From an uncultured Tateyamaria sp. (GTDB taxonomy: Bacteria > Pseudomonadota > Alphaproteobacteria > Rhodobacterales > Rhodobacteraceae): a stretch of 64,000 nt of DNA. The notes under the pieces were generated by a model that was not told the DNA's origin, did no database searches, and worked only from the letters and a program-made list of their open reading frames with translations. Position 1 is the first letter of the stretch. Every line of letters begins with the position of its first letter. The translations under genes were made by a program, and so were the position numbers. Where the stretch lies: NCBI RefSeq assembly GCF_947503415.1, contig NZ_CANNDS010000001.1, positions 1,274,501-1,338,500 on the forward strand, given 5' to 3'. This document shows positions 41,916 to 52,292 of this stretch, piece after piece.

Positions 41916-42100
41916 CTACCAGACAGATCATACTTGATCAGCGCAATGCGTTGCTGTTCGAGCTGTGTGAGATGCGCTGATCTCCGTTGACGACTGTCTT
42001 GATATTGCACCTCACCAAAGGGAAGCTGCAAGTTGCGCTTACAGGTATGGGTCGCTAGCCATGGTAAGCGAAAGGATTGCTTTCAAAAGGCGCAGATCCC

Positions 42101-43003
42101 ATGACCATCCGACTGTTGCGCACTCTGGTTGCGGTTGCCGACAACAAGACGTTCACCGCTGCCGCCGAGGCCGTGCATGTCACGCACGCCGCCGTCAGCC
42201 AGCAGATGCGGACGCTTGAGGCGGAGCTGGGCGTGACATTGTTCAACCGGGCCAGGCGGACGCCCGAATTGACACCTGTGGCGCAGGAACTGGTGGCCAA
42301 AGCTCGCAAATTGATCGCCGACTATGACAACCTTGTGCCGTCCGTTCTGGCAGACGGGGGCCTAAGCGGTGTGATCCAGCTTGGCACGTTAAGCACGACG
42401 CTGACGGGATTGACGCCACAGGCCATGGCTGTGTTCAAGGCGCAATTCCCGGGTGTTGGCCTGCACATTCGCCCCGGTCTGACGGGCGGATTGTTGGCGG
42501 ATATTGAGCGGGGCAATCTGGATGCAGCCCTGATCACCAAGCCGCATTTGATGCCTGCCGGTATCCTCTTTCGTGCTTTGACCGACGAGCCGATGCAACT
42601 GATCGCTGCGCAGGAGGAAACCGAAGATGACCCCATGCAGCTGTTGCGCACCAAACCCTACATTCGCTTCAACCGGAATGCGGTTCTGGGCACGCTGATC
42701 GACAACTGGATCATGTCCAGACGTATCCGTGTGACCGAGACGATGGAACTGGACAGTCCCGAGGCGATCGCCAGCATGGTCCACGCCAATCTGGGTGTGT
42801 CGATTGTGCCCGATCTGGCCGTAAAGCCTTTAGACGGCGTTCCCGTCAAACGGTTGGGCCTTGGGCCCGATGCGCCCACCCGGACCCTTGGGCTGGCCTA
42901 TCTGCAAGATCAGGTCAAGACACGGGCCATGGAAGAGTTGTACAACGCCTTTGCCGGTGTGATCGAACGCGCCCAGACCCAGGGATCACCCGACACGCAA
43001 TGA
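42101..43003 (+). CDS. LysR-family transcriptional regulator
   Basis: The 300-residue regulator has an N-terminal winged helix (residues about 3-60, with HVTHAAVSQQMRTLEAELG) and a C-terminal periplasmic-binding-like effector domain. AAAAGG precedes ATG 42101. The stop overlaps the TauE start (ATGA). It probably controls this pair and perhaps the convergent complex II-like operon, whose promoter contains an inverted repeat CTTA-N10-TAAG of LysR type. The effector is unknown. Confidence 0.9.
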   Translation: MTIRLLRTLVAVADNKTFTAAAEAVHVTHAAVSQQMRTLEAELGVTLFNRARRTPELTPVAQELVAKARKLIADYDNLVPSVLADGGLSGVIQLGTLSTTLTGLTPQAMAVFKAQFPGVGLHIRPGLTGGLLADIERGNLDAALITKPHLMPAGILFRALTDEPMQLIAAQEETEDDPMQLLRTKPYIRFNRNAVLGTLIDNWIMSRRIRVTETMELDSPEAIASMVHANLGVSIVPDLAVKPLDGVPVKRLGLGPDAPTRTLGLAYLQDQVKTRAMEELYNAFAGVIERAQTQGSPDTQ

Positions 43004-43743
43004 CTTTCGAAATGATCATGTTCCTCGTGCTGGGCGCTGCGGCGGGCGGCTTTATCAACGGGTTGTCGGGGACGGGCACGGCCCTGTTCGCTTTGGGGTT
43101 CTATCTGGTTGTCGTGCCGCCCGTCACGGCTGTGGCCATCGTGGCGCTGATGTCGGTTCTTGTCGGCGTACAGGGGCTGTGGGTGGTTCGCGCGTCGATC
43201 TTTGCGCGCCGTGACCGGTTGTTGCGGTTCATCCTGCCGGGCTTGTGCGGCGTGCCCCTTGGTCTGGTCCTTTTGAGCATCGCTGACAGCGCGACGTTAC
43301 GCATGGGGATCGCCGTGTTTCTGATCATCTATGGTGGCTATTTCGGGTTCCGCGCGTCCTTGCCTGCATTCGAGCGCAGCACGCCTTTGATTGACGGATT
43401 GGTCGGATTTGTGGGCGGCGCGCTTGGTGGCGCTGCGGGTGTGTCCGGTGCCCTCCCGGCCATGTGGCTGTCTATCCGCCCCTGGACCAAATCCGAAACA
43501 CGCGCCGTCTTGCAGCCCTTCAACATGGTCATGCTGACGACAACGGTGACTCTGCTGTTCTTCAGGGGGGCATATGATGCGGTGGCCCTGAGGGCCATTG
43601 CCGTGACGATCCCCTGTGGTCTGATCGCGGCGCAAGTGGGTCTGTTTGTGTTCCGCCGTCTGAACGACATCACCTTTCGTCGGTTGTTGATCCTGCTGAC
43701 GCTGGCGATGGGTGTGGGCATCTTGCTGAGCGAACTGGCGTAG
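43000..43743 (+). CDS. TauE/SafE-family anion exporter (first copy)
   Basis: This 247-residue membrane protein has about eight hydrophobic segments and two repeats. The first begins GGFINGLSGTGTALFALGFY and the second VGGALGGAAGVSGALPAMW, the family's paired motifs. Members export sulfite, sulfoacetate or other organic anions. It overlaps the LysR gene by 4 bases. A second TauE gene ends only 7 bases away on the opposite strand. Confidence 0.87.
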   Translation: MTFEMIMFLVLGAAAGGFINGLSGTGTALFALGFYLVVVPPVTAVAIVALMSVLVGVQGLWVVRASIFARRDRLLRFILPGLCGVPLGLVLLSIADSATLRMGIAVFLIIYGGYFGFRASLPAFERSTPLIDGLVGFVGGALGGAAGVSGALPAMWLSIRPWTKSETRAVLQPFNMVMLTTTVTLLFFRGAYDAVALRAIAVTIPCGLIAAQVGLFVFRRLNDITFRRLLILLTLAMGVGILLSELA

Positions 43744-43750
43744 CCGCGCA

Positions 43751-44497
43751 TCATCCCAAAAGCGTGCCCAGCAACAGATTTACGCCCAGCACCGCGAACG
43801 CAGCCAGGAAGTACTTTTTGAACTGATCAGGGTTTGTGCGATGCCGCAAGCGCTCACCAAGGGTGAAGCCGACAAGCGTCGGTATCAGCAAAAAGGTTGA
43901 AACCACAAGATCAGGGCCAGAACTGTGCCCGACAGCGATATACATGACAAAGACCGACACACTGCCCGCCGTGATCAGGAAGCCGAGCGCCTGCACAAAC
44001 GCGTCACGCTCAAGCCGGAGGCCGGTCAGGTACATGACCAGCGGTGGTGCCCAGGCGGCGGTCAATCCGCCGACCAACCCGGCGACCACGGCGCTGATCC
44101 CTTCGAACAGGCGCACCCGGTGCGCCGGGATCGGGGGCACCAGATTGCGCCAGCTGAAGAAGCAGAATGCCAGAACGAACACACCCAGCACCGCGCGCAG
44201 CAATTTGTCCGGGGCAGATTGGCTGGCCCAGACGGTCACCGCCACAAACAGGATCAATATGGCCGCATAGCGCCAATGCTGCCTGACACATCCCACCATG
44301 TCCGGACCCCGCCAGAACTGCCACGCATTGCTCAGCAGCATCGGGATCACGATCAGCGAGACAGCGGACCGTGCGTCAAGCTGAAGCGTGAGCAGGGTCA
44401 GGGCCACGGTGGGCATCCCAAGGCCGATAAAGCCCTTGACCGTCCCTGCCAGCAGCAGAACGGCGCTGGCAAACGCAATCAGGGACAGGTCGGGCAT
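43751..44497 (-). CDS. TauE/SafE-family anion exporter (second copy)
   Basis: The 248-residue permease resembles the first copy in layout (GTVKGFIGLGMPTVALTLL near residues 17-35 and VAGLVGGLTAAWAPPLVMYL near 137-156) but differs widely in sequence, so it is not a recent duplicate. It is the last gene of the nine-gene complex II-like operon, 7 bases after the fumarase beta gene, so it may export a pathway product or import a substrate. Confidence 0.86.
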   Translation of the reverse strand: MPDLSLIAFASAVLLLAGTVKGFIGLGMPTVALTLLTLQLDARSAVSLIVIPMLLSNAWQFWRGPDMVGCVRQHWRYAAILILFVAVTVWASQSAPDKLLRAVLGVFVLAFCFFSWRNLVPPIPAHRVRLFEGISAVVAGLVGGLTAAWAPPLVMYLTGLRLERDAFVQALGFLITAGSVSVFVMYIAVGHSSGPDLVVSTFLLIPTLVGFTLGERLRHRTNPDQFKKYFLAAFAVLGVNLLLGTLLG

Positions 44498-44504
44498 ATG
44501 CGCT

Positions 44505-45170
44505 TCAGATCACCTCGTCCGTGCGGTCATCGCTTTCGCCATAGCGTTTGAGAACCGCAGGTTTCGTCCCTTCGTAGACGCGGGCCACGCTTTCGGCAAT
44601 CTTGGCATTTTCCCGTTCGAACAGGCAGTCGCCATTCATGTCCGAGGCCACGATGAACGGCCCCATCCGGTTGCACTTGATCACCCACATGGCCTGGGCC
44701 AGACCCAGCTGCTCGTTCCAGTGCACCGCTTCGACATTTTCGACCCCGCGCCCCAAAAGCGCGCCTGTGCCATAACCTACGGTCGACAGATATACGGCCC
44801 CGTTTGGAACGAAGTACTCCTTGTAGTCCTTCGACGTCATGCCCCCCTTGCCGACGATCAGCTTGGCCCCGGTCTTGGCCATCCACTCGGGCAGCCACTT
44901 GGCAAAGCGGAAGGACGCGGTGGCCGTCACCGCGCCCATGTCAAAGCTGCCATCGGGGTTGATGCGGGCGGCGGGCGAGCAATGGAAGTTGGCCGCCGAT
45001 TGGCTGGGCAGTTCCATCGGTATGTTGGCCTTGTCCTCAAGCGCGCGCATGTAGACACCCTCGCGCGCGGTGTACATGAGACCGTCGAGGTAGACGACGT
45101 CGCCCAGCTGCAGATCGGCAATGGCCTCGTCGGTGGGGGTGGTGGAGAGGCGGACTTCACGCGGGCTCAT
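44505..45170 (-). CDS. Class I fumarase/L-tartrate dehydratase-type beta subunit
   Basis: The 221-residue subunit carries the C-terminal domain of iron-sulfur class I hydro-lyases (FumB-C/TtdB): GDVVYLDGLMYTAREGVY (about residues 23-40), the swivelling-domain core IVGKGGMTSKDY (about 104-115) and YLSTVGYGTGALL. With the alpha subunit it would hydrate a fumarate-like acid or dehydrate a malate or tartrate. The start overlaps a foreign-looking gene (ATGA) that separates it from alpha. Exact substrate is unknown. Confidence 0.87.
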   Translation of the reverse strand: MSPREVRLSTTPTDEAIADLQLGDVVYLDGLMYTAREGVYMRALEDKANIPMELPSQSAANFHCSPAARINPDGSFDMGAVTATASFRFAKWLPEWMAKTGAKLIVGKGGMTSKDYKEYFVPNGAVYLSTVGYGTGALLGRGVENVEAVHWNEQLGLAQAMWVIKCNRMGPFIVASDMNGDCLFERENAKIAESVARVYEGTKPAVLKRYGESDDRTDEVI

Positions 45171-45583
45171 TGCGTGGCTCGCTTCAATGAAACAAGGTCG
45201 TGGATATCGTATGCAATGGCACCGTTGGTCTCAGACACATCGAAAAAGCCGACGGCAGTATTCAGCGCGGCGTCTAGCGTGGCTTCTCGAGCTAATTCAG
45301 CAATAGACCAAGCAAACGACAGGTAAATCGCGTCTGAAGCGAAGGAATATTCTGTGACATATGGATCATCAACGTTTTCCAATGCGACTGCATGAGGACC
45401 GTTCAACGGCGGAAAATCACGGCGAAACAAGTGGTAGAAACTGATAAGACTTCCCGTCATCCCGATCGGATCGGTATAGTCTCTGGCTTCTTCCCAGCGC
45501 GTAATGTCACCGTACCATTGTAGAAACGTTGTGCGTGTTCGTGGTGCAACGGCAGGGTTGAAGACCATCAAGTCGTAGCTCAT
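45167..45583 (-). CDS. Hypothetical protein inserted between fumarase subunits
   Basis: The 138-residue soluble protein begins MSYDLMVFNPAVAP and contains FLQWYGDITRWEE, a FPPLNGP turn, a YSFASDAIYLSFAWS strand-helix and VGFFDVSE. I recall similar bacterial proteins of unknown role but no named family. GGGAGG before ATG 45583 fixes the start. It overlaps both neighbours by 4 bases. GC over 45181-45540 is about 49% by my count, against about 60-65% beside it. This suggests recent transfer into an operon whose coupling was kept. Confidence 0.8.
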   Translation of the reverse strand: MSYDLMVFNPAVAPRTRTTFLQWYGDITRWEEARDYTDPIGMTGSLISFYHLFRRDFPPLNGPHAVALENVDDPYVTEYSFASDAIYLSFAWSIAELAREATLDAALNTAVGFFDVSETNGAIAYDIHDLVSLKRATQ

Positions 45584-46536
45584 TCCGCCGCCTCCCGTTG
45601 CGGTTCCCAATCCACCGTTTCGCGCCGTTGGTAATCTGTGAACCAATCCGGGTCCGTACGGTGCTCTACCCGCCCGTCTGCATGGATGCGCGCCACGGCG
45701 CGGCGCGAGGACAGGCAGAAGGCATGCACTGACATCGGCATGCCGCCGGTGTGGCAGTAGCCCACCTCGATATTGCAATCGATCACCATGTTCTTGCCCA
45801 CGAACCCCATGGCCCCCATGCCGATGGAATTGCCAAGCTCTTTGAACTCATCCTCCATCTCCGCAATCCGTGGGTCGGAATTGCGGCTGCCCACGATGCG
45901 CAGGGTGGAGGCGCGTTTGCCAAGTGTCATGCAGATGTCCTTGGACCCTCCAAGCCCGATGCCGATGATGGCAGGCTGGCAGGCAAGGCCGCGTTTGCCG
46001 AACGCCATGAGGCTGTCGAGGTAGAACCGCTTGATCCCCTGAATGCCGTCGGAGGGGAACAGCATCCGGTAGTCGGTGCCGAAAAGGCCCCCCTTGTGCA
46101 CCGTGATCAGGTCGATCCACTCGCCTTCCGGTTCGAACCCGTATTCGATCTCTGGCGCGCCGATGCCCACGTTGTTGTCGTGATCCGTGCGCCACAACGG
46201 GTGCACGCGGTTGGGGCGCAAGGGCACACCATTGGTCGCGTTGGCCGTGGCGCGTCTTAGGGCGGCTTCAAGGGCAACCATCCCGCCCTCAACCCGCGCC
46301 TCGTTCCCCATTTTCACGAACCAGCGGGGCACGCCGGTGTCACCGCACATGGCGCGGCGGTCTTCCTTGGCGGCGTCGTAGTTTTCCAGCATGGCCTTGA
46401 GAACAAAGGAAGACAGGTCGCCATCCTCGGTCTTGGCCGCGTGTTGCAGGCCATCGAGGTAATCTTGCGGTATCTCGATCGCCGCCTTGTCCATGAGGAC
46501 CTCGGCGGTGGATTGGACGAGGTTGATGGGGATCAT
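45580..46536 (-). CDS. Class I fumarase/L-tartrate dehydratase-type alpha subunit
   Basis: This 318-residue subunit binds the 4Fe-4S cluster. The expected cysteines lie in MCGDTGVPR (about residue 64), GSKDICMTLG (about 203) and VGYCHTGG/HAFC (about 259-270). The motif CGDTG and HPLWRTDHDNN segments favour the tartrate dehydratase/two-subunit fumarase group over long FumA. It lies 4 bases after the isochorismatase gene and is separated from its beta subunit by one gene. The pathway is inferred to use a C4-dicarboxylate analogue. Confidence 0.87.
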   Translation of the reverse strand: MIPINLVQSTAEVLMDKAAIEIPQDYLDGLQHAAKTEDGDLSSFVLKAMLENYDAAKEDRRAMCGDTGVPRWFVKMGNEARVEGGMVALEAALRRATANATNGVPLRPNRVHPLWRTDHDNNVGIGAPEIEYGFEPEGEWIDLITVHKGGLFGTDYRMLFPSDGIQGIKRFYLDSLMAFGKRGLACQPAIIGIGLGGSKDICMTLGKRASTLRIVGSRNSDPRIAEMEDEFKELGNSIGMGAMGFVGKNMVIDCNIEVGYCHTGGMPMSVHAFCLSSRRAVARIHADGRVEHRTDPDWFTDYQRRETVDWEPQREAAE

Positions 46537-46540
46537 TTGG

Positions 46541-47155
46541 CTATGCTCCAGATGTGGCCCGCATGGCGGCGATCAGAGTGTCTCGGGGTTGGACCGCACC
46601 AGTTTGCAAATATTCCATGGCCCTCAACGATGCCTCGTGCGCCTCAATCGAAGACCCGCCCACGCAATCTTCGGCCACGCGGCAGTGGTAGTCCCATTGA
46701 TGTCCGTCCACGAATGTATAGTGCACACACACATCCGTCAGTCCGCCGCAGAGCAAAAGTGTTTCGACTTTGAGCCCGCGCAGCAAGATTTCGAGGTCGG
46801 TTCCGAAAAACGCGGAGTAGCGGCGCTTGGGCACGATATAGTCCCCCGACCGGTAGCCCATTTCGTCAAAGGCAATTTCCGTGCGCGGGTCATTGTCCAG
46901 ACAATGCACGTCTTCGTCGCCGTCCAGTTCACGACCGAAATCGATCCCGTCCGCGCGGTGGATTTCCTGAATGAAGATCACTGGTACACCGGTTTCATGG
47001 GCTGCATCCACCAGCGCGCGCGCCGCCAACATCCGGTCGCGATAGCCGGGCATGTTGGCGATGGCCCGGTCGCTGCTCATGTCGATGAAGGTCGACGCCT
47101 GGATGTCGATCACGATAAGGGCCGCGCGGCCCTCGATTGTCTTGCGTTGTGTCAT
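46541..47155 (-). CDS. Isochorismatase-family cysteine hydrolase
   Basis: The 204-residue alpha/beta hydrolase has the family triad: Asp in LIVIDIQAST (about residue 16), Lys in VPKRRYSAF (about 105) and Cys in GGLTDVCVHYT (about 144). Members cleave amides (maleamate, N-carbamoylsarcosine, nicotinamide) or vinyl ethers. It overlaps the flavoprotein gene by 4 bases. In this operon an amidase role that yields a dicarboxylate is plausible but unproven. Confidence 0.88.
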   Translation of the reverse strand: MTQRKTIEGRAALIVIDIQASTFIDMSSDRAIANMPGYRDRMLAARALVDAAHETGVPVIFIQEIHRADGIDFGRELDGDEDVHCLDNDPRTEIAFDEMGYRSGDYIVPKRRYSAFFGTDLEILLRGLKVETLLLCGGLTDVCVHYTFVDGHQWDYHCRVAEDCVGGSSIEAHEASLRAMEYLQTGAVQPRDTLIAAMRATSGA

Positions 47156-48909
47156 TGTGCCGCCACCAGTGTTTCAGGTTCGCCGTCGGGCAGGATTGTC
47201 CCGCCCGGGCTTACGATTGTAAATTGAACGGGTTCACGGGTGACTTTGATGCCCGCGCTGTCAAGCGTGGCCACCGTGAAATCACTGTCTTCCATTGCGC
47301 CCGCATCGGGGAAATCCTCGCGATAATGCGCGCCGCGAGAGTTTTCGCGGGCGATCCCGGCCTTGGTTATGACCGCGGACATATCACACAATGACCGCAG
47401 GTTCAGCCAATCGTGCCAGGTGAGGTTGAATGCCAGGTTGCTGGCGTCCACGCCAACGTCCATCAGTGCGTCCGACACGTTTGCAATCCCGTCCAGACCG
47501 CGCTGCATGCCTGCTTCGGTCCGCATCACGCCCACCTCTTCCCACATAAGGTCTTGTAACTGTTTGCGCAGGGGCAGGATCAGGTCCGGCGTGCGGGTCA
47601 GGGGATGGGTCGCGCGCGCGAACTCGGCGGCCAGCACGTCTTCGTCCGGGTCGCGCAGGGTCATTCCGCCCACGTCGCGCCCCATCGTGTCGCCCGCGAT
47701 GCCGCCATAGACGGTGGAGTTGGCGACCCCGTTGCCGCCCAGCCGGTTCGAGCCATGCGCGCCGCCGGCGTCTTCGCCCGCCACATACAGCCCCTCCATC
47801 GCCGTGCGCGTGTCCACATCGACCACCACGCCACCCATAAAGTAGTGGGCGGTTGGCACCACCTCGACCCTGCCTGCGGCCAGATCGAATCCGCTGTCAG
47901 CGCAGCGTTTGACCATGCCTTTGAACTTCTTGGCCACCCAGTCGGGGCCAAGGTGGGACATTGAGATGAACACGCCCTCTTGGTCGGGATTGTTGTTCTT
48001 GCGCATCTCGGCATAGATGCCACGGCTGACCACGTCGCGGGTGGCGCGTTCGCCTTTGCCGTCATAGTCGAACATGAACCGCTGGCCCGAATGGTTGATC
48101 AACTGCCCACCTGCGCCGCGCAACCCTTCCTCGAGCACAGTACCAGTCATGCGGGTATGGTCCCCGGCAAGGAGACCCGTGGGGTGGAACTGCACCATCT
48201 CCATGTCGCGCAGTTGCAGGCCAGCGCGAAGGGCCATGGCGAGGCCGTCCATCGTCTTATCACCCGAGGGCGTGTGGTATTTGTACATCGTGGGGCCGCC
48301 GCCTGTGGCCATCAGCACCGTCTTGGCGCGTACCATACGAAAGCGTCCGGTACGCATGTCGATCATCAGGACACCGGCCAGTGCAGAGCCGTCGCGCGTC
48401 GGGATCAGACCCACGGCGCGGTGTTCCTGCATCTTCTCGACACCGCTTGCCAGCACCTTTTCCATCAGGCGGTTGATGATTTCGATTCCTGTCAGGTCGC
48501 CCTTGTGCACGGTGCGGTCGGCGGTCTGGCCCGCGAAGGCCTTTTGGTGCAGCGACCCGTCTGGGTTGCGGTCGAAAAAGCAACCGACCTCGTTTTCCAA
48601 TTCGCGGATTCGCACCACGGCCTGTTCGCAGAGCCGCCACGCCATGTCTTGATTGGGCAGCCATTTGCCGCCCTGAATGGTGTCCATGAAGTGTCGTTCG
48701 ACCGTATCCCCGCCGCCAAGGGCGACGTTGTAGCCACCCTGCACCATGCGTGTGCAGCCGCATTTGCCGATGAGCCCTTTGACCGCGATTGTAATTCTCG
48801 TGCCTTCGGGCGCGGTTTGCTGGGCGTGGAGGGCTGCGAACAGCCCGGCACCCCCGGTGCCGAGGATCAGGATATCGGTATCGTGGCGTTCGATGTCGGA
48901 GAGTTTCAT
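47152..48909 (-). CDS. Complex II-like flavoprotein (succinate dehydrogenase/fumarate reductase family)
   Basis: The 585-residue protein has the FAD-binding motif GTGGAG (residues 17-22), then GCTRMVQGG where SdhA has SHTVxAQGG, so the covalent-FAD histidine is replaced by Cys52. Other active-site segments are kept: MEMVQFHPTG, EEGLRGAGG, TRDVVSRG, PTAHYFMGG and HGSNRLGGN. FAD is therefore probably non-covalent, as in L-aspartate oxidase. B, C and D subunits are adjacent. ATG 48909 is chosen because it gives MKLSDIERHDTDILILG. Substrate is probably a succinate or fumarate analogue. Confidence 0.88.
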   Translation of the reverse strand: MKLSDIERHDTDILILGTGGAGLFAALHAQQTAPEGTRITIAVKGLIGKCGCTRMVQGGYNVALGGGDTVERHFMDTIQGGKWLPNQDMAWRLCEQAVVRIRELENEVGCFFDRNPDGSLHQKAFAGQTADRTVHKGDLTGIEIINRLMEKVLASGVEKMQEHRAVGLIPTRDGSALAGVLMIDMRTGRFRMVRAKTVLMATGGGPTMYKYHTPSGDKTMDGLAMALRAGLQLRDMEMVQFHPTGLLAGDHTRMTGTVLEEGLRGAGGQLINHSGQRFMFDYDGKGERATRDVVSRGIYAEMRKNNNPDQEGVFISMSHLGPDWVAKKFKGMVKRCADSGFDLAAGRVEVVPTAHYFMGGVVVDVDTRTAMEGLYVAGEDAGGAHGSNRLGGNGVANSTVYGGIAGDTMGRDVGGMTLRDPDEDVLAAEFARATHPLTRTPDLILPLRKQLQDLMWEEVGVMRTEAGMQRGLDGIANVSDALMDVGVDASNLAFNLTWHDWLNLRSLCDMSAVITKAGIARENSRGAHYREDFPDAGAMEDSDFTVATLDSAGIKVTREPVQFTIVSPGGTILPDGEPETLVAAQ

Positions 48910-48911
48910 GG

Positions 48912-49262
48912 TCACACCGCCTGCATCAGAAAGAGTGTTGCGATCAGGAAGGACAGCGCCGTGGCCCCTGCCGCCAATGTCTTTTGCGGCGGTGTCCATG
49001 GCAGCCATTCCATTGCCATCAGACGCAGGCCGCCGAACATGTGGACGGCCAGCAGAAAGACCAGCCCGAACTCTGCCAGTTTGACGATTCCGATCTCGGT
49101 GAAGGCAAGGAAGCCATCCAGCCTGTCGGGGTTGGTCAGCGCTAGCGACAGAATCCAGAAGTGGAAGGGCAGGAACAGGGCAAGGCCCAGACCCGACAGG
49201 CGGTGCAGGATGTAGGCGAGCCACAAAGGATGCGCGCGGGAAGTGATGCCGTGGGGTTTCAT
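48912..49262 (-). CDS. Complex II-like membrane anchor (SdhC-type)
   Basis: The 116-residue anchor has three hydrophobic segments. HPLWLAYILHRLSGLGLALFL (residues about 10-30) resembles the conserved HRxSG of SdhC/FrdC, and a second histidine lies in LLAVHMFGG (about 74-82). Both could bind haem b and line a quinone site. It overlaps the next anchor gene by 4 bases and ends 2 bases before the flavoprotein gene. Confidence 0.82.
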   Translation of the reverse strand: MKPHGITSRAHPLWLAYILHRLSGLGLALFLPFHFWILSLALTNPDRLDGFLAFTEIGIVKLAEFGLVFLLAVHMFGGLRLMAMEWLPWTPPQKTLAAGATALSFLIATLFLMQAV

Positions 49263-49591
49263 GCGAATGTCACCGCCCAGACGGCCCGTGTCCCGAGTGC
49301 GAAGAGACCGAGGCCGATGGCCCACATCGTGGCCTCAAGTGCCGGTCCTTTCACGCCGCCCCATTCGTGGGCGATGGTGCGAAGCCCGATGGCCCCGTGG
49401 ATCGACACGGCGACGACGAACAGTCCGTAGAACAGGAACCACGCGACGGACCCTTGAGTGCGGCCAAGGATTTCGGCAGCACTTAGCCCGCCTTGAATGG
49501 CGTAGGTCATCACGGCGAGGTGCCCCACGACAAGTGGTGCCATCAGCAATGCTGTGATCCGTTGCAGCATGTAAAGGCGGAGCGACAGCAT
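49259..49591 (-). CDS. Complex II-like membrane anchor (SdhD-type)
   Basis: The 110-residue protein has three hydrophobic segments with histidines in VVGHLAVM (about 22-29) and VSIHGAIGLRTIAHEWGG (about 62-79), fitting a haem-binding quinone-reactive anchor. The start shares a base with the iron-sulfur gene stop (TGATG), and its stop overlaps the SdhC-type start (ATGA). Two anchors with histidines suggest a di-haem or one-haem quinone-linked complex. Confidence 0.8.
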   Translation of the reverse strand: MLSLRLYMLQRITALLMAPLVVGHLAVMTYAIQGGLSAAEILGRTQGSVAWFLFYGLFVVAVSIHGAIGLRTIAHEWGGVKGPALEATMWAIGLGLFALGTRAVWAVTFA

Positions 49592-50304
49592 CAGCGCTCC
49601 CTCCGGAAAAACGACTTCGCCGTTTCGCGTTTTAGCCCTGCGATGGCGGACATGGGGTCGAGGTCATTGGGGCAATAGGTGGTGCAGGACCCCATGGAGT
49701 GACAGTTGTGGCAGCCCCCTGAACCTGACACGGCATCAAGGATCGCAACGCGCCCTTCGTCCTTGGCGTCGTTCAGCAGGGTCCATGCCCGTTGCAGCGC
49801 GGCGGGGCCAAGGTAGTTCGGGTTGCCTGCAACCGTGTCACAGGCGGCATAGCAGACGGAGCAGTTGATACATTCGATCCCGGCGTTTGCTTCGACCCGT
49901 GTGGCGCTGGTTTCGTCCACCGGTGCGATGGGGTCATGCCGTGTCAGGCTGCCGTGGTGCACCCCTTCGGCTTCCACCCATTTGTCAAAGAACGGGTCCA
50001 TATCGACCACGAGATCCTTGATCACGGGCAGGTTGCGCAGGGGGGCGATGGTCACGGCACCGTCCTTGATCACCTTTGATATGTGCGTGCGGCACGTCCA
50101 GCGCGGCACGCCGTTCACCATCATGGCGCAGCTGCCGCACATACCGACGCGGCAGGCGAAGCGATAGCTGAGCGTGGGGTCCGCATTCTGCTGGACCCAC
50201 GAAACGACATCAAGCACGGTCTGGCTGTCATAGGCGGGCACCTCGAATGCACCCTGTTCGTCTGGGCTGCGTTCGATGGTCACCTTGATCGACTGCGTTG
50301 TCAT
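49591..50304 (-). CDS. Complex II-like iron-sulfur subunit
   Basis: The 237-residue protein has a 2Fe-2S domain with CRVGMCGSC and a later Cys in RWTC (about residues 51-71), followed by a ferredoxin-like domain with CINCSVCYAAC (about 142-152) and CHNCHSMGSCTTYC (about 198-211) for the 4Fe-4S and 3Fe-4S clusters. Electrons would pass from the flavoprotein to the anchors. It is the first gene of the nine-gene operon, with a LysR-type site and a TATACT -10 upstream. Confidence 0.88.
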   Translation of the reverse strand: MTTQSIKVTIERSPDEQGAFEVPAYDSQTVLDVVSWVQQNADPTLSYRFACRVGMCGSCAMMVNGVPRWTCRTHISKVIKDGAVTIAPLRNLPVIKDLVVDMDPFFDKWVEAEGVHHGSLTRHDPIAPVDETSATRVEANAGIECINCSVCYAACDTVAGNPNYLGPAALQRAWTLLNDAKDEGRVAILDAVSGSGGCHNCHSMGSCTTYCPNDLDPMSAIAGLKRETAKSFFRRER

Positions 50305-50420: not shown

Positions 50421-51254
50421 ATGTCAGATACGCCCGAACCGAACCTGTCCCAGCTTTTGGCCGCCCGGTTCAGCGATGCGCCGGATGCTGTTGCGGATCG
50501 TCCCGAGTTGCATGCATTAGCGGCCCGCGGTTCATGTCGCGCGTTTCTGGATCAGCCTGTGCACGATGATGTGGTGCAAACGCTTTGTGCGGTCGCCCTT
50601 GCGTCGCCCACGAAAAGCGATTTGCAGCAGCGGGATATCGTTGTGTTGAAGTCCGCAGCGACGCGGCAGCGATTGGCGGATCTGGTGTCCGGTCAGGCGT
50701 GGGTCGCGCAGGCCCCCATGCTGCTGGTGTTCTGTGGCAACAACCGACGCCAGCGGTTGCTGCACGACTGGCATGATGTGCCTTTTGCCAATGACCATCT
50801 GGATGCAGTTATCAATGCGGCGGCAGACGCGGCCATTGCGCTTGGGGCTTTTGTGGCGGCGGCGGATGCGCTGGGCCTTGGGTCCTGTCCCATCAGTGCG
50901 GTACGGAACGAGGCGGGGGCGGTGTCGCACCTGTTGGGGTTGCCCGATCATGTCTTTCCCTTTGCGGGGCTTGCGCTTGGGTATCCTGCGGCCGCGCCAG
51001 AGATTGCCAAGCGCTTGCCGCTGCATGTGACCGTGCATGAGGATCGGTATCAGGAGGATGGGCTGCGTGATGCCGTTGCATCCTACGATGCGGACCGGGC
51101 GGCGGCGCAGCCCTATGCACGGCAACGGTTTGTCGAGACGTTTGGAGAGGTCGCGCCCTACACCTGGTCCATCGACAAGGTGCGCCAGTACAGTGCGCCT
51201 GAGCGGGCCGGGTTCGGGGACTTCATGCGCAAACGCGGGTTTCGCCTTGAATAG
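50421..51254 (+). CDS. Nitroreductase-family flavoprotein
   Basis: The 277-residue protein resembles NfsA-type FMN reductases: ARGSCRAFLDQPV (about residues 34-46), ALASPTKSDLQQRDIVVL (about 58-75) and GLGSCPISAVRNE (about 151-163). These enzymes use NAD(P)H to reduce nitro groups or quinones. It is divergent from the complex II-like operon across 116 bases, so it may share control. It converges on the alcohol dehydrogenase gene, with 3 bases between stops. Confidence 0.85.
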   Translation: MSDTPEPNLSQLLAARFSDAPDAVADRPELHALAARGSCRAFLDQPVHDDVVQTLCAVALASPTKSDLQQRDIVVLKSAATRQRLADLVSGQAWVAQAPMLLVFCGNNRRQRLLHDWHDVPFANDHLDAVINAAADAAIALGAFVAAADALGLGSCPISAVRNEAGAVSHLLGLPDHVFPFAGLALGYPAAAPEIAKRLPLHVTVHEDRYQEDGLRDAVASYDADRAAAQPYARQRFVETFGEVAPYTWSIDKVRQYSAPERAGFGDFMRKRGFRLE

Positions 51255-51257
51255 AGC

Positions 51258-52292
51258 CTAGCCGTGTAGGTCCGTGATCACCGCGGTGCCCGGTGGCGTT
51301 GGCCCGTGCATCGCCCGCAACTCGGCGCTGGCACCCGACAGGGGCACTTCGCGCGCAACCATCGGTGTCAGGTCCACGTCGCCACGTTCGATCATCTCAA
51401 GCAATGTAGGGTACTTCCATGCGGGCATGCCGCGTGTGCCGAAGAAGGACAGTTGCTTGGTGTAGATGCCGCGCATGTTCACTTCCATCATGCCGGACCC
51501 GGCGGGCATGCCCACATGCACGTGGCGGCCAAGGATGCGCAGGCAGTCGATAGAGGCGTTGGTGGTTGCTTCGATCCCCAGCGCTTCGACCGACACATGC
51601 GCCCCGCCGCCTGTGATGTCGCGGATCGCTTCGGCTGCGTCCGTTGTGGTGGCGTTTACGGCGGCATCCGCCCCAAGGCTTTGGGCGTGCGTCAGTTTTT
51701 CCTCGACGACATCGACCACAATGACTTGCGCGCCCAGCATCTTGGCCAACAACAGCGTGGCAAGGCCGATGCCGCCGGTGCCATGCACGGCCACCCATTC
51801 GCCTGCGCGGACATTGGCCCGGTCCGTCAGCGCGTGCCATGCTGTGGTGACGCGGCACCCGAGGCCAGCGGCGAGACCGGGGGTCATTGTGTCGGGCAGA
51901 TGGACCAGATTGTGATCGAAGGGGACGGCGACGTATTCGGCGTAGGCACCGGGCGTGCCGAAGCCGGGCACGATCTGGTTTTCGCAGGTGTTGGACACGC
52001 CTGTATGGCAGGCAGGGCAGTCACCGCAGGACAGGATGAAGGGCGCGATCAGGCGGTCGCCGATCTTGTGTTTGGCGCTTGCCCCGGCCTCGACCACGGT
52101 TCCGCAGTATTCGTGGCCCAGTATCGACCCGTTCTGCACCTTGGGATGTTCGCCGGTCCAGCCGTGGTAGTCGGAGCGGCACACGCCGCACGCCGCGACT
52201 TCCATAACGACGCCGTTGTCGGGGCAGGATGGGTCTGGCACCGTCTCGATCGACAGGTCCTGGCCAAAGGATCGGACAACAGCGGCACGCAT
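51258..52292 (-). CDS. Zinc-dependent alcohol dehydrogenase (MDR family)
   Basis: The 344-residue enzyme has catalytic zinc ligands in CGVCRSDYHGW (Cys37) and GHEYCG (about 59-64). The four structural-zinc cysteines are in CGDCPACHTGVSNTC (about residues 89-103). A Rossmann motif GTGGIGLA follows. It oxidises an alcohol with NAD(P), but the substrate is unknown. No operon partner lies on this strand. It is divergent from the iron-binding protein gene. Confidence 0.88.
   Translation of the reverse strand: MRAAVVRSFGQDLSIETVPDPSCPDNGVVMEVAACGVCRSDYHGWTGEHPKVQNGSILGHEYCGTVVEAGASAKHKIGDRLIAPFILSCGDCPACHTGVSNTCENQIVPGFGTPGAYAEYVAVPFDHNLVHLPDTMTPGLAAGLGCRVTTAWHALTDRANVRAGEWVAVHGTGGIGLATLLLAKMLGAQVIVVDVVEEKLTHAQSLGADAAVNATTTDAAEAIRDITGGGAHVSVEALGIEATTNASIDCLRILGRHVHVGMPAGSGMMEVNMRGIYTKQLSFFGTRGMPAWKYPTLLEMIERGDVDLTPMVAREVPLSGASAELRAMHGPTPPGTAVITDLHG

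Follow-up and report, generated by a model that had tools for sequence, protein, structure and literature searches.

A complex II-like dehydrogenase and class I fumarase-like hydratase from a Tateyamaria sp. as candidate enzymes of 3-sulfopropionate degradation

What reaction is catalysed by a second complex II-like enzyme whose genes run directly into those of a class I fumarase-like hydratase and a TauE permease? This arrangement is found in an uncultured Tateyamaria sp. (Rhodobacteraceae), in a 64,000-nucleotide stretch of contig NZ_CANNDS010000001.1 (positions 1,274,501 to 1,338,500; the whole stretch is referred to as the window), where nine genes on the minus strand extend from position 50304 down to 43751. 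Based on sequence comparisons, the locus most likely encodes a 3-sulfopropionate dehydrogenase and a sulfoacrylate hydratase with sulfite export, and represents a distinct complex II/class I fumarase subfamily.

The nine genes were verified and have no internal stops. The intergenic gaps are -4 to +7 bases, with the second anchor started at the ATG at 49262, in agreement with an earlier reading of the DNA by a model without database searches (the sequence-only reading), which had put no gap above 7 bases. The gene families named in that reading were verified with Pfam and NCBIfam. The genes of the run and the two adjacent to it are listed below, where core denotes the genes conserved in other genomes.

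49591..50304, minus strand: iron-sulfur subunit (SdhB/FrdB-like), core; Fer2_3 8.6e-28, TIGR00384 dhsB 183 bits against a cut-off of 88
49259..49591, minus strand: membrane anchor 1 (SdhD-like), core; Sdh_cyt 7.6e-9
48912..49262, minus strand: membrane anchor 2 (SdhC-like), core, HRxSG motif kept; TIGR02970 55.1 bits against a cut-off of 52.3
47152..48909, minus strand: flavoprotein, proposed 3-sulfopropionate dehydrogenase, core; FAD_binding_2 1.6e-67, also Succ_DH_flav_C
46541..47155, minus strand: isochorismatase-family hydrolase, optional cargo; PF00857 1.9e-41
45580..46536, minus strand: class I fumarase alpha-like subunit, proposed sulfoacrylate hydratase, core; PF05681 2.9e-65, TIGR00722 208 bits against a cut-off of 101
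45167..45583, minus strand: 138-amino-acid protein, inserted cargo of lower GC content at third codon positions (GC3, 0.51)
44505..45170, minus strand: class I fumarase beta-like subunit, core; PF05683 2.7e-19
43751..44497, minus strand: TauE/SafE (TSUP) permease 1 (TauE1), optional; PF01925 2.3e-26
43000..43743, plus strand: TauE/SafE permease 2 (TauE2), a frequent neighbour of the core and proposed exporter of sulfite; PF01925 6.1e-26
42077..43003, plus strand: LysR-family regulator, proposed to control the locus, with a 4-base overlap with TauE2; LysR_substrate 3.2e-34, HTH_1 1.6e-19

We infer the substrate, the direction of reaction, the regiochemistry of hydration and the cargo of the exporter as follows. 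The flavoprotein, together with the iron-sulfur subunit and anchors, would oxidise 3-sulfopropionate to 3-sulfoacrylate with transfer of electrons to quinone, and the Fe-S hydratase would add water to the carbon next to the carboxylate of 3-sulfoacrylate, giving 3-sulfolactate. Sulfite would then be released by other enzymes, either from sulfolactate via sulfopyruvate and sulfoacetaldehyde to Xsc, or by SuyAB, or by CuyA, and would be exported by TauE. 3-Sulfopropionate was chosen because oxidation and hydration of this succinate analogue would give sulfolactate, with which the routes suggested by the gene types next to the core begin. A dedicated path of oxidation followed by hydration had also been proposed in the sequence-only reading, and is supported here as the best reading of the locus.

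The first four core genes have the characteristics of the complex II superfamily, namely an iron-sulfur subunit, a flavoprotein and two anchors. Both anchors keep His at positions aligned to those of E. coli SdhD (anchor 1) and SdhC (anchor 2) that we take to be haem ligands, and H242, E261, R291, H355 and R389 of the flavoprotein are conserved and align with the complex II set presumed to be catalytic and carboxylate-binding. These features are shared with SdhA, FrdA and TfrA complexes; TfrA is the best NCBIfam model for the flavoprotein (463 bits), although the score is below its cut-off of 718 bits. A separate sdhC-sdhD-sdhA set is present in the host genome (G000:C1:341123-345757), so the locus is not, as the absence of such a set would have implied, the housekeeping complex, and the earlier view of it as a second enzyme holds.

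The flavoprotein is only 35% identical to the host SdhA. In the phylogeny, the 27 core rows are split from the five SdhA, FrdA and NadB rows by a branch with 100/100 support, although the NadB and FrdA branches are long and their own placement is unsure; the core flavoprotein therefore falls outside SdhA proper, and outside FrdA and NadB. The clade is also distinguished from complex II by its residues: Cys52 stands where complex II has the flavin-linking His and Glu260 where it has the substrate-site Thr, Arg54 is a new residue, and an inserted loop carries Arg or Lys at 253. The residue at the Cys52 position is His in the host SdhA, E. coli SdhA and FrdA, and Ser in NadB; this His is presumably the covalent FAD carrier. 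Residues were counted in 86 flavoproteins, 80 fumarase alpha and 64 fumarase beta sequences from 87 loci, each together with the window, using simple open reading frame calls (L094 was left out, and others were cut at contig ends or read in another frame). C52, R54 and E260 are present in 87/87 rows and R/K253 in 86/87, and all four also occur in the Rhodococcus and haloarchaeal members.

The hydratase genes contain PF05681 and PF05683, both class I fumarase domains. The pair resembles the two-subunit class I fumarase/L(+)-tartrate dehydratase in these domains and in an alpha subunit that scores over the TIGR00722 cut-off, and alignment to 7xky, a class I relative of solved structure, matches both the Cys positions in alpha and the lysine of GKGGM in beta. 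By contrast, the beta subunit scores 111 bits against the TIGR00723 cut-off of 145, and the motifs differ from those of 7xky: CGDTG for CQDTG in alpha (Gly in 78 of the 81 rows, Ala in three), and REGVY and TATASFRF for RDxxH and GPTTSxRM in beta. When CQDTG and GPTTSxRM were used as a motif test for class I fumarase, the window hydratase had neither. Gly65 of the hydratase was considered as a marker of substrate, a role weakened by distant members that have CQDTG (M. radiotolerans, L125 and Rhodococcus RHA1) or CADTG (Pseudomonas MPC6 and Cupriavidus P-10); since a CQDTG-type pair occurs in three distant members, the hydratase motifs alone are not substrate markers. At L125:9221-10717 and L132:8181-9926, the flavoprotein (about 62-63% identical) is found with a different class I hydratase of the CQDTG type.

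The conserved unit consists of six genes, often accompanied by LysR and TauE. Their order is almost invariant across loci: iron-sulfur subunit, two anchors, flavoprotein, fumarase alpha and fumarase beta. In M. radiotolerans and M. oryzae, the hydratase genes come before the flavoprotein. The scan across named genomes gave 80 loci, the best 80 of at least 587 confirmed relatives, among which the nearest flavoprotein, from a Tateyamaria isolate, is 94% identical. The core was found in 15 of 41 genomes chosen by kinship, 11 of 398 in a phylum sample and 17 of 149 in a family sample, the host's own genome being in each. As Alpha-, Beta- and Gammaproteobacteria all have members with the core, the arrangement is more than a chance association.

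The remaining genes of the run are much less constant. Among the 87 loci, LysR is present in 49, TauE2 in 46, TauE1 in 5 and the isochorismatase in 4, and the 138-amino-acid gene has a single homologue, in L043 (tblastn). On account of this rarity the isochorismatase, the 138-amino-acid gene and TauE1 are optional cargo. In relatives, the gene order recurs for the six-gene core and not for these three genes, and the part given to the isochorismatase-type hydrolase in the heading of the sequence-only reading was overstated. The 138-amino-acid protein has no match at E 0.01 in Pfam or NCBIfam, and its GC3 of 0.51, lower than the 0.71-0.81 of its neighbours, suggests a recent insertion. Inserts of more than 150 bases occur at the junction of flavoprotein and fumarase alpha in 20/78 loci and at that of fumarase alpha and beta in 18/73. 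Both junctions behave as insertion slots (46541-47155 and 45167-45583 in the window; loci L027-L106), with cargo that includes family III CoA transferase, short-chain dehydrogenase/reductase (SDR), homocysteine S-methyltransferase family and isochorismatase genes and other open reading frames, some of clearly lower GC.

Genes of sulfite- and sulfonate-related types are found beside the core in other genomes. Neighbours were tallied by iterated profile search in 109 loci plus the window (n = 110), with seed loci and same-genus near-copies included and L159-L161 outside the tallies; the sole background rate is that of TauE in the host genome, where two of the six TauE genes are at this locus. 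TauE-type permeases are near 68 of the 110 cores, TctA transporters near 28, thiamine diphosphate (ThDP) enzymes near 23, MMSDH/SSADH-type aldehyde dehydrogenases near 12, sulfite-dehydrogenase-type proteins near 11 and YeiH near 10, followed by Ldh-family (6), SlcC-like (5), SuyB-like UxaA (4) and FAD-linked 2-hydroxyacid dehydrogenase genes (3). TauE genes dissimilar to those of the window adjoin the core in separate lineages (Pfam-verified in L106, L122, L125 and L159), and in L121 both the alpha and beta subunits of sulfopyruvate decarboxylase adjoin it, each over its cut-off. GabD-like dehydrogenases scoring more than 560 bits are near five cores, as would be expected if 3-sulfopropionaldehyde feeds into the route. 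These neighbours support the earlier suggestion of a link between sulfite release and TauE.

The fullest arrays are plasmid-borne, where gene tables are incomplete. In Methylobacterium oryzae, the stretch comprises a binding protein, the core, a ThDP enzyme, TauE, a UxaA pair and a dicarboxylate symporter, followed by an NAD(P)-dependent oxidoreductase, an Ldh-family enzyme, a molybdopterin oxidoreductase and a putative sulfate exporter; the M. radiotolerans locus resembles it as far as the Ldh gene. In Paracoccus versutus and P. ferrooxidans, the core is found with YeiH, TauE, the Ldh family, a hydroxyacid dehydrogenase and a tripartite transporter. In Haloarcula and Natribaculum, the flavoprotein and iron-sulfur subunit occur with TauE, a UxaA pair and an argininosuccinate-lyase-type (ASL-type) gene, and anchor and fumarase genes are absent from the annotation of that stretch; the best model for the Haloarcula Ldh-family gene is sulfolactate dehydrogenase, under its cut-off. 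The ASL-type gene of the haloarchaea, like the CQDTG-type hydratase of other members, is possibly a replacement for the hydratase.

These arrays can be compared with known sulfolactate genes. A SuyA-SuyB-SlcC-ComC arrangement with TauE is described for sulfolactate in a passage of PMC12421959, and M. radiotolerans, M. oryzae and Paracoccus sp. IB05 have 2-hydroxyacid dehydrogenase-type, Ldh- and UxaA-family genes close to their cores. The SlcC/ComC and SuyAB module differs in acting after sulfolactate, and none was found near the core of the window. The tripartite transporter SlcHFG is given in part of PMC5812351 as the sulfolactate uptake system of R. nubinhibens and Chromohalobacter. SuyB identity could not be assigned by model, as SuyB is not among the matched NCBIfam models, of which the best, galactarate dehydratase, scores far under its cut-off; in Pfam the candidates have only altronate/galactarate dehydratase domains. 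The ThDP enzyme, which recurs near the core (L028, L040, L058, L086, L106, L132, L159 and others), was likewise left unassigned, the best models being acetolactate synthase- and 2-hydroxyacyl-CoA lyase-like and under cut-off; that of M. radiotolerans is also under the cut-offs.

A link independent of the neighbourhood reasoning comes from the literature on Roseovarius nubinhibens ISM. Homotaurine breakdown in this strain via 3-sulfopropionate, sulfoacrylate and sulfolactate is reported in a Konstanz thesis, as cited in a passage of PMC11489063. According to the same passage, bacterial degradation of 3-sulfopropionate and 3-hydroxypropanesulfonate was otherwise unreported before, and 3-sulfopropionate can serve Bilophila wadsworthia as electron acceptor, through a path not known. 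Within the literature surveyed, the pathway is so far outlined through this thesis citation, and no genes for the oxidation or hydration of 3-sulfopropionate, sulfoacrylate or 3-hydroxypropanesulfonate are named in the titles and abstract beginnings surveyed, all from open-licence papers. R. nubinhibens ISM (G437, locus L063) has the same core, adjoined by TauE, LysR and TctC-type genes. Two complex II flavoproteins were found in its genome at E 1e-20, that of the core and one 34% identical to it, with no third; the latter groups with SdhA in a separate tree, one row of which is a wrong-frame open reading frame.

Several observations weigh against 3-sulfopropionate as the substrate or against parts of the proposed route. 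Glu260 at the expected place of carboxylate or sulfonate binding appears odd and counterintuitive for an anionic substrate. The flavin-linking His is replaced by Cys52, and E. coli complex II is impaired in oxidising succinate when the histidyl-flavin link is lost. The flavoprotein is paired in some members with a CQDTG-type hydratase, and the haloarchaeal ASL-type gene scores over the argininosuccinate lyase cut-off and may therefore be unrelated to the path. Scores of the tested UxaA, Ldh-family and L045 sulfite dehydrogenase-type proteins are all under the cut-offs of their nearest NCBIfam models. In the host genome, Xsc is present, as is a TIGR01275-family protein, possibly CuyA, and there are no ThDP relatives above 40% identity; since ComE-like (E 1e-20) and SuyB-like (E 1e-70) matches were not found, any route from sulfolactate to sulfite in the host is tentative.

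The co-occurrence of the core with genes of the sulfolactate routes is also weak. In the 149 family genomes, taken as one draw across the searches, xsc is present in 14 of the 17 genomes with the core and 78 of the 132 others (P 0.051), suyB-like genes in 6/17 and 19/132 (P 0.041), and comE in 5/17 and 25/132 (P 0.24), none of these values being corrected for kinship; two of the 17 have none of the three. The counts include all 92 xsc matches (91 over cut-off), 25 of 26 suyB-like matches (G528, 39% identical, was left out) and the 30 of 37 comE matches that are over cut-off; the core genomes G023, G536 and G552 have comE matches under it.

The same 3-sulfopropionate could instead be hydrated at the sulfonated carbon, with immediate release of sulfite and malonate semialdehyde. 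This is what the CoA-acylating methylmalonate-semialdehyde dehydrogenase adjoining the core of Pseudomonas MPC6 (TIGR01722, over cut-off) could indicate, a further point against the route via sulfolactate. Aldehyde dehydrogenases near two Cupriavidus cores would fit as well, and so would the many loci in which sulfite-exporter genes adjoin the core and the search found no gene of sulfolactate type. In the mechanism of Fe-S hydratases, however, an alpha-hydroxy carboxylate is chelated, so that sulfolactate is favoured over malonate semialdehyde as the product. With sulfolactate-type genes beside the core in several lineages, and a cited route that passes through sulfolactate (thesis as cited in a passage of PMC11489063), hydration at the sulfonated carbon appears unlikely.

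Sulfosuccinate was the first choice of the sequence-only reading: it would be oxidised to sulfofumarate and hydrated at the sulfonated carbon, after which sulfite would leave spontaneously and oxaloacetate would be formed. The same sulfite-export genes fit this substrate, the tripartite tricarboxylate transporter near 28 of the 110 cores suits a multi-anionic compound, and further enzymes would be unnecessary, in keeping with hosts that have neither SuyAB nor ComDE. However, because this reaction gives oxaloacetate directly, it leaves unexplained the genes beside the core that are of types used for C3-sulfonates (sulfolactate and sulfopyruvate), as well as the physiology of R. nubinhibens, which uses 3-sulfopropionate according to the passage of PMC11489063, and nothing on sulfosuccinate enzymology was found at title or listing level. 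Sulfosuccinate is thus less likely than 3-sulfopropionate, and quite improbable.

A succinate or propionate with another substituent (methylsuccinate, or a thio-, amino- or sulfonium compound), with TauE moving other anions, is an equally doubtful candidate. The varied cargo of the loci (family III CoA transferase, homocysteine S-methyltransferase family, SDR, isochorismatase and an enolase-superfamily protein) would be consistent with such substrates, but not the recurrence of several unrelated sulfite- and sulfonate-type families beside the core. Dimethylsulfoniopropionate and other sulfonium substrates, suggested by Glu260, were put aside given these neighbours.

An accessory role in the citric acid cycle, as succinate:quinone oxidoreductase and fumarase, is very improbable for the locus: it does share its gene families, the His positions of the haem ligands and its catalytic residues with complex II and class I fumarase, and an induced cluster of similar description, which may be the same operon, is read as perhaps Krebs-linked in a passage of PMC12421959, but the housekeeping sdh is separate, the flavin-linking and substrate residues are changed throughout the clade, and the distribution is patchy.

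Returning to the 3-sulfopropionate route, the pair would probably be a complex II and fumarase specialised for sulfonates, which mirrors the succinate-fumarate-malate sequence with a sulfonate in place of one carboxylate and has lost the histidyl-flavin link. The full core extends over Alpha-, Beta- and Gammaproteobacteria, with a related set that has another hydratase in Rhodococcus jostii RHA1 and a reduced form in haloarchaea, and would supply the missing genes for aerobic mineralisation of 3-sulfopropionate, and possibly of 3-hydroxypropanesulfonate and homotaurine. Conversion of homotaurine to 3-sulfopropanoate is reported for Cupriavidus necator H16. 3-Sulfopropionate and 3-hydroxypropanesulfonate are products of the anaerobic breakdown of sulfoquinovose and dihydroxypropanesulfonate. 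If the assignment is correct, genes are named for the first two steps of aerobic 3-sulfopropionate degradation, and these genes could be examined in strains that grow in culture and followed in metagenomes; the annotation 'succinate dehydrogenase / fumarase' would hide a sulfonate pathway, and the flavoprotein, as an atypical complex II, would lend itself to work on how specificity depends on the flavin link and the substrate pocket.

Upstream of the operon, an alcohol dehydrogenase-type gene (51258..52292, minus strand) is a facultative neighbour, its family being present in 14/87 loci; several dehydrogenase models match it, all under cut-off, and it is possibly involved in 3-hydroxypropanesulfonate oxidation. 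Between it and the operon, a nitroreductase-family gene (Pfam) at 50421-51254 is divergent from the operon, and the family occurs in 18/87 loci. Aconitase X-type genes lie beside the core in a few loci (L136:4207-5852, L099 and L101, the last with the Pfam domain AcnX). In L065, L070, L071, L073, L076, L078, L089, L106, L126, L128 and L131, the gene after the core encodes a small protein of the NIPSNAP family, in several of these beside a YeiH exporter.

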